A stretch of 64,000 bases of DNA from Chamaelirium japonicum (Eukaryota > Streptophyta > Magnoliopsida > Liliales > Melanthiaceae). This document shows positions 32,193 to 61,380 of the stretch, one piece after another. The stretch lies in assembly GCA_947650365.1 (NCBI GenBank), contig OX393550.1, positions 71,180,978 to 71,244,977 of the forward strand. The letters are read 5' to 3'. How positions within the stretch are numbered: position 1 is the first letter of the stretch; every line of letters starts with the position of its first letter. A program made the translations under genes and the position numbers. Below the pieces are notes generated by a model that worked only from the letters and a program-made list of their open reading frames with translations, did no database searches and was not told the origin of the DNA.

Positions 32193-32586
32193 AGAGGAAT
32201 GTTACAATGAGCTATGAGCTACAAAAGAAGAAAATGAGCTACGATAAAAACTGTCATCCTATCAATTTCAGAATTTGTTGAAATTTGGTGGGTGTGTTGT
32301 CTAGGGTAAGATGATCATCCTCACCAATTTTTAACAAATTCCAAAACTTCTAGGGTCATCAAATGGTAGAAGCTTTATCGACCATCCATAGTAACCGTTA
32401 ATTTATCTTAGCACGTTTGATGACCCTAAAAGTTTTGGAATTTATTGAAAATTGGTGAGGATGATCATCTTACCCTAGACAATACACCCACCAAATTTCA
32501 ACAAATTCCGAAACTAATAGGGTGGTATTTTCGATCGTAGCTTATTTTCTCTTCTTGTAGCTCATAGCTCACTGTGACATTCCTCT
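32193..32586. mobile_element. Fold-back element M1 (394 bp)
   Basis: The two halves are inverted copies: the start AGAGGAATGTTAC and the end GTGACATTCCTCT, then GAGCTATGAGCTAC against GTAGCTCATAGCTC, with the arms continuing to the centre near 32385. It sits between a CA/TA microsatellite and a CT/TA microsatellite. The inner arm contains GATGATCATCCTCACCAATT, shared with the elements at 59.5 and 60.4 kb. No coding capacity. Confidence 0.9.
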
Positions 32587-32596
32587 CTCTCTCTAC

Positions 32597-32677
32597 ATAT
32601 ATATATATATATATATATATATATATATATATATATATATATATATATATATATATATATATATATATATATATATA
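32597..32677. repeat. TA microsatellite at the C4 left end
   Basis: About 40 TA units run directly into the C4 LTR. The first about 15 bases of the LTR (TGTTAATGTATATAG in the partner) are replaced by the repeat. Confidence 0.9.
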
Positions 32678-32804
32678 GATGGGTCGGTTTTACATGTACA
32701 GTCGGGTCGGGTTGTATGGTCATTCATGTACATATATATGGGCTTGAGTCCCTCAATAGAGAGTATTGCATTCCTCTCCAAACCCTAGCCGTCATCTCCT
32801 AACA
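32663..32804 (+). repeat. C4 5' LTR with eroded start
   Basis: Ends CTCCTAACA before the primer site. It aligns with 37842-37982 except for the first bases, where TA repeats replace TGTTAATG. Confidence 0.85.
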
Positions 32805-32816
32805 TGGTATCAGAGC
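32805..32816 (+). other. C4 primer binding site
   Basis: TGGTATCAGAGC directly after the LTR. Confidence 0.9.
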
Positions 32817-33410
32817 TCTAGGGTTCTCCCGCGCGGCGACGACGACGACGACGGTCCTCCCCCTCCGGCAGCACCTCCCCGTCCGGCCTCCCTCCTCCAC
32901 CGGCCCACCCCGTTCGGCCTCCCTCCTCCACCGGCCCCCCTTTCCGCCGCCCGACAGCCCCCCTACAGCCGTCGCCCGACCTCCCTCCTCCACCGGCCCC
33001 CACTTCCGCCGCCCGATCTCCCTCCTCCACCACCCCCCCCCCCCCCCCCTTCCGCTACCCCCCCGACCCCTTTCTGCCACCCGACTGCCCCCGCCCCCGC
33101 CCCCCCTTCCACCACCCGACAGCCGCCCGGCCCCTCCCTTCCGCCGCCCGACAGCCCCCGACCCCCTTCCTCCACCCCCCGGCCCCCCTTCATCCAACCG
33201 ACAGCCCCCGGCCCCCCCCTCCTCCACCCCCCCGACCCCCTTCTGCCACCCGACTGCCCCCGGCCCCCCCCTCCTCCACCCCCCACTGCCCCCGGCTCCC
33301 CCTCCTCCACCCCCGACCCCCCTTCCTCCACCCCCCGAACCCCCTTCCTTCACCCGACCGACCCTCCCACCCCTTCCTTCTCGGTTCCCCCCCTCTGTTG
33401 AGCCTCCTCC
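32817..33410 (+). other. C4 C-rich leader
   Basis: About 590 bases dominated by CCCCCGACC, CTCCTCCACC and CCGCCGCCC words. A 211-codon proline-rich frame starts in the LTR at 32766, crosses the primer site and ends at 33401, just before the gag ATG at 33411. Its composition is that of the repeat, so I do not call it a gene. Confidence 0.75.
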
Positions 33411-60005: not shown

Positions 60006-60363
60006 AGTAGTGATACATTGCGGTCGAGTAACGTGTGGCACCCCCTTCGGGGGTATTTTCAGAATTTTTTTTTTTTTTGGGATTGATCACCTACCCTTGA
60101 ATTGGACACACAAAAAATTTCAGCCCGATCCAAGACCTGTAGGCCGTCCAAATGTGTTGATCAAAATGGCGAAAAAAATGAACGACCGATAAAAGATCAA
60201 CACATTTGGATGACCTACAGTCTTGGATCGGGCCTGAAATTTTTTGTGTGTCCAATCCAAGGGTGGGTGATCAATCCCCAAAAAAAAAAATTCTGAAAAT
60301 ACCCCCGAAGAGGTTGGCCGTACGTTAAGCCACATGTTACCCCGGCCGCAATGTATCACTACT
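60006..60363. mobile_element. Fold-back element M3 (358 bp)
   Basis: Starts AGTAGTGATACATTGCGG and ends CCGCAATGTATCACTACT, exact complements. Inner arms GATCCAAGACCTGTAGG and CCTACAGTCTTGGATC meet near 60175. The arm also holds CCCCCTTCGGGGGTATTTTC. TA tracts lie on both sides. Different sequence family from M1 and M4. Confidence 0.92.
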
Positions 60364-60403
60364 CATATATATATATATATATATATATATATATATATAT
60401 ATA

Positions 60404-60807
60404 TGAGGAATGGGATGCTGCCTATCAAAGCAGCGTTTTTTGCTGCTTTGATACATTGTTTGACCATCCTAGAAGTTTTGGAATTTGATGAAATTTGGTG
60501 AGGGTGTTGTCTAGGGTATGATGATCATCCTTACAAATTTTCATCAAATTCCAAAACTTCTAAGAGGGTCAAATGATCGAAGCAAAATCTGCAGATTTTA
60601 ACGGTGACTGCAGATTTTGCAGATTTTGCTTCGACCATTTGACCCTCTTAGAAGTTTTGGAATTTGATGAAAATTTGTGAGGATGGTCATCATACCCTAG
60701 ACAACACCCTCACCAAATTTTATCAAATTCCAAAACTTCTAGGATGGTCAAACAATGTATCAAAGCAGCAAAAAACGCTGCTTTGATAGGCAGCATCCCA
60801 TTCCTCA
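60404..60807. mobile_element. Fold-back element M4 (404 bp)
   Basis: Starts TGAGGAATGGGATGCTGCC and ends with its complement. The arms contain a small hairpin (AAGCAGCGTTTTTTGCTGCTT) and the inner module GTTTTGGAATTTGATGAAA with GATGATCATCC. Between TA tracts. The centre is near 60605. Confidence 0.93.
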
Positions 60808-60890
60808 TATATATATATATGAGGAATTCTGAAACCTCTAGGGGGGTTTCGTACAAGGTTTCGCAAATAAGAAGTTTCTCACTGGATCAG

Positions 60891-60995
60891 CCCTCTCTCT
60901 CTCTCTCTCTCTCTCTCTCTCTCTCTCTCTCTCTCTCTCTCTCTCTCTATATATATATATATATATATATATATATATATATATATATATATATA
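60891..60995. repeat. CT-TA compound microsatellite
   Basis: CT units to about 60948, then TA units up to the M5 boundary. Confidence 0.95.
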
Positions 60996-61380
60996 TGAGA
61001 AACAAAATGCTACCTTTGAAAGCAGCGTTCTTTGCTGCTTTGACAGGTCGCCGGTGGCTATCAAAGCCATAAACGACGACAAATGTCATCAAAACTCACA
61101 ACCGGGAGGTGTTAGAAGTCACCGGAGGTGGTCGCCGACGGTGGATGTCGTCGGAGGTTGCTGGATGAGGTGATGTGATGAATGGACGGCTCACAATGGA
61201 CGTAGTCATCATAGTCCTCTATCGGTGGACACCGACATGTGGTGTCAGAGAAGATCATCGGTGGAGGTAATCGAAGGTTGTTGATGTTGATTCTGGCCGG
61301 AGATCACTTGTGGCGCGACCGTGGTGGGTTGTCAAAGCAGCAAAAACGCTGCTTTGAGAGGCAGCGTCCCGGCCTCCCCT
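60996..61380. mobile_element. Fold-back element M5 with unrelated centre
   Basis: Starts TGAGAAACAAAATGCTACC and AAAGCAGCGTTCTTTGCTGC. Ends with GTCAAAGCAGCAAAAACGCT and GGCAGCGTCCCGG. The ends match M4, but the middle 260 bases are not self-complementary and resemble GGAGGTGG/CGCCGG-rich filler. Flanked by TA at left and CT/TA at right. Confidence 0.7.

Follow-up and report, generated by a model that had tools for sequence, protein, structure and literature searches.

A group of long inverted-repeat elements sitting in TA microsatellites was analysed in a 64,000-nucleotide stretch of Chamaelirium japonicum DNA (G000:C2:71180978-71244977, hereafter the window; genome size 1.52 Gb). It contains nine such elements, together with three fragments, arranged in strings along tracts of (TA)n. 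We hold with good confidence that they are fold-back, non-autonomous Mutator-like elements (MULEs) of the size of miniature inverted-repeat transposable elements (MITEs), which target microsatellites and were inserted by cut-and-paste. This confidence covers the class and the mode of insertion, and we are less sure of a further step, the growth of the tracts around the elements. The kind is already known, since SaTar, MuTAnT and Ac-mMITE are microsatellite-targeted non-autonomous Mutator-like elements. In C. japonicum, the register of the TA repeat seems to record the mode of element insertion.

The nine inverted-repeat elements and the half copy at 38.0 kb that had been listed in the initial annotation were all present, and the inverted-repeat score of each of the nine exceeded those of 100 dinucleotide shuffles of the same element. 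Feature coordinates are window-relative, and no strand is assigned unless one is given. The scores were 470 versus a shuffle maximum of 36 for E1 (32194..32585; a fold-back element of the GAGGAATGTTACA family), 765 versus 42 for E4 (39813..40313; a near-perfect fold-back of the GAGGAATGATAGGCTGCGG family), and 697 versus 37 for E9 (60405..60806; 402 bp, GAGGAATGGGATGCTGCC family), the weakest being 52 versus 30 (61.0 kb) and 77 versus 42 (39.4 kb). Folding of E9 with DNA parameters gave −225.5 kcal/mol, compared with a shuffle mean of −42.7. The common terminal motif reported earlier was found in exact form, GAGGAATG...CATTCCTC, at both ends of E1, E4 and E9. Similar ends occur on one side of E8 (GAGTAGTG) and of E11 (GAGAAACA), and in a GA-grown form in E7. 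The terminal inverted repeats (TIRs) and small size are as in SaTar-type non-autonomous MULEs, with coding capacity judged through the list of open reading frames alone.

The short end is linked to TA throughout the genome, as had been suspected. The end together with adjoining TA, TATATATATAGAGGAATG, gave 564+604 = 1168 matches and its reversed control pattern 0+0, and the paired pattern GAGGAATGN{100,130}CATTCCTC occurred 55 times versus 4 for the reversed pattern, so a lack of enrichment can be rejected. For the E9 family, the one followed across the genome, the end GAGGAATGGGATGCTGCC had 1447+1446 = 2893 exact matches. Most of them (976+1001 = 1977) have twelve A/T just before the end, 372+352 = 724 have a GA run of at least 4 extra GA units, and 8+10 = 18 have G or C. 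That most ends adjoin TA, or GA and then TA, would also fit TA tracts that are internal parts of the elements and are co-transposed with them. We regard this as very improbable and rejected it, since the left flank of E1 is (CA)12 with just TATATA at the element end (on the right, (TC)4 is followed by TACA and a TA run of 81 bp), an element at another locus (L087) has no TA tract, and E4 duplicates an interrupted TA unit outside GAGGAATG; the 18 E9 ends with G or C before them speak against it as well.

TA slippage is expected to alter tract length by 2 bp, which would preserve the register. A target duplication of odd length leaves the two ends of an element, read outside-in, in opposite registers (TATATA/GAGG versus ATATAT/GAGG), and one of even length leaves them in the same register, so that the register yields the parity of the duplication and not its length. 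The E9 family was odd in 18 of the 18 pairs with letters displayed, all on C1 below 45 Mb; they came from the first part of the list of 1977 ends, in which 84 of 85 lettered rows were used, one not being pure TA. An overlapping set, the retrieved E9 copies, showed opposite registers in 15 of 16. The E4 family was even in all four retrieved copies flanked by TA at both ends. Of 15 E4 ends on C1 up to 85.5 Mb, 14 lay in the A register, and the four pairs recognized there by eye from their places, two of them also among the retrieved copies, were all same-register. Among the retrieved copies, same-register ones also made up 3/3 of the E1 family, 2/2 of ATAAAATG and 6/7 of CTTAGG. Odd parity was found for GGGTCAGG, the likely MITE of the full-length element L051 described below (3/3), and for GGGGGCGGGGAGCC (5/5), from a pairing table of which only the clean-pair families were used, because some of its rows join ends of different neighbouring elements. 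Copies lacking a TA run of at least 6 at both ends were dropped (CTTAGG 12/19, ATAAAATG 2/4, E4 1/5, E1 2/5, E9 0/16), and loci L005-L034 had been picked by one end in the A register, which leaves only the other end free. Parity follows family and separates two classes or more, with E9 odd and E1/E7 and E4 even. Among the same-register copies of even families we also noticed 14 AA versus 1 TT, as if the 10-bp target read TATATATATA, in part a bias of locus choice.

The link of register to family argues for cut-and-paste insertion, with a stagger of 9 or 10 bp, and against recombination between microsatellites. The latter route was put forward by the SaTar authors, in whose material many flanks lack visible duplications (PMC5907723); circular intermediates with TA filler would enter TA microsatellites by homologous recombination. 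Consistent with it, a 9-10 bp duplication is visible at the ends as they stand in 1 of the 24 short elements that we read. However, a register shared by family members at independent loci is expected from a fixed stagger and not from arbitrary repeat units, and GA/CT and TA growth at the junctions can account for missing duplications; we consider recombination improbable. Candidate duplications of 8-11 bp, in partial agreement with the register, were read directly for E4, with 10 bp of TATATATACA within TA (39803..39812 and 40314..40323, read from the letters as a possible target duplication), and for L087, which alone of the 24 has both flanks outside microsatellites and shows TTGCCTAAC/TTGTCTAAC, 9 bp with one mismatch. 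A by-eye reading gave a possible duplication for E1, CACATATATA/TACATATATA, alike at 9 of 10 positions.

The TA flanks themselves would be compatible with Tc1/mariner elements of the Stowaway type, which make a 2-bp TA duplication. Such a duplication leads to an even register, yet E9 was odd in all 18 pairs read, and the TA-embedded full-length elements encode FAR1/MULE proteins. The ends of Stowaway, CTCCCTCC, also differ from those found here. A mariner/Stowaway origin was rejected on the odd register of E9, and we give it hardly any chance. A single family was rejected too, as both arms and register differ between families.

To what transposases the short elements might respond was approached through a genome search with the MULE domain, in which 150 of 1214 candidates were scored and 30 loci fetched, forming nine clusters. 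Wider flanks were read for one member of each cluster. TIRs with TA tracts on both sides were found in two of the nine, L052 and L051. L052 (C2:50616132-50623079) is 6948 bp long and has TIRs of about 1.2 kb, which agree at 1211 of the 1217 positions aligned (flanking TA makes up 24 of them), and an open frame of 729 amino acids. Another copy is located at C11:28975451-28982399 and C9 carries an isolated end; all five TIR ends found adjoin TA. L051 (C6:16033106-16039050) is 5945 bp long with an open frame of 812 amino acids. FAR1, MULE and SWIM domains are present in both frames (MULE domain PF10551, E 4.8e-33 and 3.7e-33); a FAR1 domain has been named in the Jittery transposase JITA (PMC9569675). 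An in-register alignment of the L052 end GGGGATTGCTAGGCTGCGGCATGCG to GAGGAATGATAGGCTGCGGCGTGCG of E4 scored 55 versus a shuffle maximum of 34, so E4 carries a TIR like that of a putatively autonomous MULE residing in a microsatellite. L052 is even in both copies and L051 is odd. Judged from their sequences, L052 and L051 are likely autonomous partners, their parities agreeing with those of the MITE families, and such full-length elements in TA tracts might mobilise the short ones. A search for an autonomous relative with a transposase, proposed in the initial annotation, has thus yielded two candidates, one of them homologous at its end to E4, and none with exact GAGGAATG. The idea of one mobilising system appears wrong or incomplete, as there are at least two parity classes, and the FAR1-type MULEs seated in TA tracts are likewise of two distinct kinds, one per parity.

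The GA/CT tracts have a fixed orientation. Among 69 TA-tract sides read outward from the tract (22 in the window and 47 in MULE flanks), a CT start was seen in 0 and a GA start in 19. With 0 of 69 the wrong way, the GA/CT tracts seem to have arisen by growth from the terminal GAG of the element and not to have served as targets. AGAG is present in the TATA/GAGG register and absent in the other. Since (GA)n/(CT)n growth started from one register in the copies read, odd families should grow such a tract at one end. This prediction held for GA-grown E9 copies on C1 below 44 Mb, where the partner end was in the T register in 21 of 21 (of 28 GA ends there, 7 had no listed partner). Growth at both ends is possible in even families, as in L083, L084, L088, L101 and L102.

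Whether TA tracts also grew was addressed by empty sites. The string at L016 (C1:9602081-9603026) consists of 80 bp of AT, an E9-type element of 400 bp, 23 bp of TA, an element of 378 bp, 24 bp of CT and 41 bp of AT, and is located in repeated host sequence, which seems hAT-like from its end. Nine joined flank pairs were built and those of L016, L017 and L087 searched; L008, L012, L014, L019, L029 and L033 were left out, mostly since the flank resembled another element's end by eye. The joined L016 flanks span the junction at 36 other, paralogous places with 77-86% identity (40 of 1216 candidates scored). In the 15 of these with a separately placed left flank, the gap was 10-23 bp (median 21) versus 946 bp at the occupied site; in one of them, measuring to the separately matched right flank gives 20 instead of 12. 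For L017 and L087 the joined flanks found their own loci only and gave no empty site, and no copy of the L016 host repeat was found among the retrieved loci. At the L016 site, then, the elements and the long tracts are not ancestral, and the L016 tract may have grown before or after insertion. The proposal that elements were inserted into TA tracts was in part contradicted by this result, the long tracts there being largely not ancestral. Within the window, 11 of 11 TA runs of at least 16 bp have an element or fragment next to them, on one side or on both. Together, the short empty sites at one locus and these neighbours make growth of TA tracts there likely, and long TA tracts have probably grown around short targets.

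For this step alone, the alternative is that long TA tracts were already present and were chosen as targets, with no later growth. A preference for (TA)n is known in related families, the E4 duplication TATATATACA shows a target that was rich in TA over 10 bp or more, and tract length showed no relation to divergence (no rise among E9 copies; Spearman 0.11, p 0.69, n 15). The short paralogous sites, the 11 window runs and the fixed orientation of GA/CT, which indicates junction growth from the element end, stand against it, and we judge pre-existing tracts unlikely, though deserving of real weight.

Taken together, cut-and-paste insertion would proceed as follows. FAR1-type MULE transposases of the larger TA-embedded elements would mobilise the short elements in trans and insert them at short sites rich in TA. 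The stagger would be constant in each lineage, and for it we infer 9 bp in E9 and the GGGTCAGG/L051 group and 10 bp in the E1/E7, E4 and L052 group. The microsatellites at the junctions would afterwards lengthen by 2 bp at a time, with TA supplied by the target copy and GA/CT by the terminal GAG of the element where the register gives AGAG. An enlarged TA tract may become the target for the next insertions, presumably a preferred one, and so give rise to non-nested strings. Non-nested strings with microsatellite joints are seen at 39.4-40.7 and 59.0-61.5 kb of the window and in the segment tables of L005, L012 and L013. More broadly, we tentatively propose, as a possibility somewhat short of an even chance, that the elements build their own landing pads: two co-resident MULE lineages, with 9-bp and 10-bp staggers, would enter short TA runs and seed in-register TA and GA/CT growth, the grown tract would be the preferred next target, most long TA tracts in the genome would be element-made, and the register would remain as a lasting record of the inserting lineage.

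Several observations weigh against these conclusions. Transposition is deduced from sequence and none was observed. In seven of the nine MULE clusters (L035, L036, L038, L040, L043, L056 and L062; one member each), the stretches read showed no clear TIR bordered by TA at both ends, the stretch of L036 being limited by an early contig end. The termini of L052, GGGGATTG/GGGAATTG, differ from GAGGAATG, and no full-length element with exact GAGGAATG ends was found among the MULE loci examined. When compared with the L052 TIR, the sole comparison made, E1, E8 and E9 scored under the shuffle maximum, which is adverse for E1 and E9. Relatives of the L052 transposase are 41-76% identical, and ends were read only for those within the nine clusters. 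As for register, the window copy of E9 is itself even, unlike its family, L001 is odd, unlike the CTTAGG family to which it belongs, and the 9-bp duplication of L087 occurs in a mostly even family. The evidence from empty sites consists of gap sizes at one locus (L016), and the lack of a rise in tract length with divergence is adverse to growth.

The elements lie in three groups (32.2-38.1, 39.4-40.7 and 59.0-61.5 kb), end-to-end within each group and mostly with (TA)n between them. In the first, E1 is accompanied by E2h (38044..38143), an E1-family half copy with 85/102 identity. The second contains E3 (39370..39758), with 81-bp arms (64/81) and ends GGGGAATAGGG / AGGTAATAGGG, then E4, and E5 (40407..40631), a fold-back element with TA tracts on both sides. 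In the third, E6 (59021..59338), a fold-back with an E1-like core, is fused on its right to an end fragment resembling the GAGGAATGATAAAATGCGGCGTGCGG family in by-eye comparison (59339..59394, minus strand), whose end meets a 59-bp TC tract. It is followed by E7 (59543..59932), an E1-family fold-back with its left end (GA)n-grown; E8 (60007..60364), a fold-back with left end TAGTAGTG and GAGTAGTG at the right; E9; the fragment E10h (60821..60892), which starts GAGGAATT and meets a 56-bp CT tract; and E11 (60997..61378), with E9-like ends (37/40) and a different interior. The earlier set of nine thus stands, corrected by the fusion at 59.0 kb and the additional fragment at 60821-60892. The arms, said to be unrelated beyond the termini, are related in E1-E7 (327/391), E1-E2h, E1-E9 (224/284), E1-E6 (186/249) and E9-E11, and the statement holds for E3, E4, E5 and E8, which had no match listed in the pairwise comparison within the window set. 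The interior of E11 (61040-61330), which differs from that of E9, is mostly non-palindromic and is possibly captured sequence, as in Pack-MULEs.

A Copia-type long terminal repeat (LTR) element (32678..37982, plus strand) lies inside the TA tract between E1 and E2h. Its LTRs have 1 difference in 125 aligned positions, and its 5′ LTR is without its first bases where the TA tract starts. The stretch from E1 to E2h lies between two exons of a protein-kinase gene, presumably phototropin, and E3 to E5 just past the second exon; the joined 55-residue exon peptide matches the Pkinase profile and AGC-type kinases of the Protein Data Bank (PDB). Elsewhere in the window are long tandem arrays at 6821-7621 and 8177-8950, with units of 76 bp and about 29-40 bp, and a 71-bp TC tract (56601-56671) distant from TA runs. 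At L011:1500, L024:1474 and L029:1404, sequences with a hairpin and, after it, CTAG adjoin the same TA tracts; they resemble Helitron 3′ ends, and Helitrons too may insert at these tracts.

Tract register gives the parity of a duplication from sequence alone and sorts families by likely transposase lineage. It offers a reason for GA/CT flanks being confined to one end in some families when other families show them at both, and it allows cut-and-paste to be tested against recombination in any assembled plant genome. The origin of long TA microsatellites is also touched by these results. Among the open-access papers listed in our literature searches we saw no use of the register, and PMC4486113 describes the duplications made by elements lodged in TA as difficult to establish.

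SaTar of guayule, rice, sorghum and citrus (PMC5907723) is the same in being non-autonomous MULEs in (TA)n, in non-nested strings and fused elements, in 10-bp duplications outside microsatellites in guayule and 9 or 10 bp in citrus, and in autonomous MULEs with similar TIRs that also reside in microsatellites. The likeness is one of description, not of sequence, and C. japonicum differs in having two coexisting parity classes separated by register. The SaTar flanks were judged inconsistent with cut-and-paste, and register and growth as found here offer an explanation. Ac-mMITE of pineapple (PMC8449440) likewise comprises MITEs in (TA)n and in clusters, a minority lying outside with 9/10-bp duplications. 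There too GA sits for the most part at 5′ ends and TC at 3′ ends, which was ascribed to slippage, and TA flanks one side of most copies associated with GA/TC. No autonomous partner was found in that study, in contrast to the two candidates here; a rule of GA growth from one register was not met in the portion available, and the words 'phase' and 'parity' are absent from its main text. Micron of rice had been cited as a contrast to the present fold-back structure, yet PMC5907723 classes it as a non-autonomous MULE, and PMC4486113 reports arms of the fold-back type in MuTAnT. Micron and TAFT of maize share the targeting of TA, as far as descriptions in PMC5907723 and PMC4486113 go, and from the same sources empty sites of TAFT are 6-8 bp of TA, growing up to (TA)50 per side. 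MuTAnT/AutoMuTAnT of Medicago (PMC4486113) is likewise a fold-back MITE in TA tracts. Its autonomous element is Jittery-like and also lies in TA, its duplications are 9 nt long, it has distal GGGG/CCCC, and its empty sites contain fewer TA units than its occupied sites do. It differs in having 218 copies, versus 2893 exact E9 ends here, where several families share GAGGAATG.

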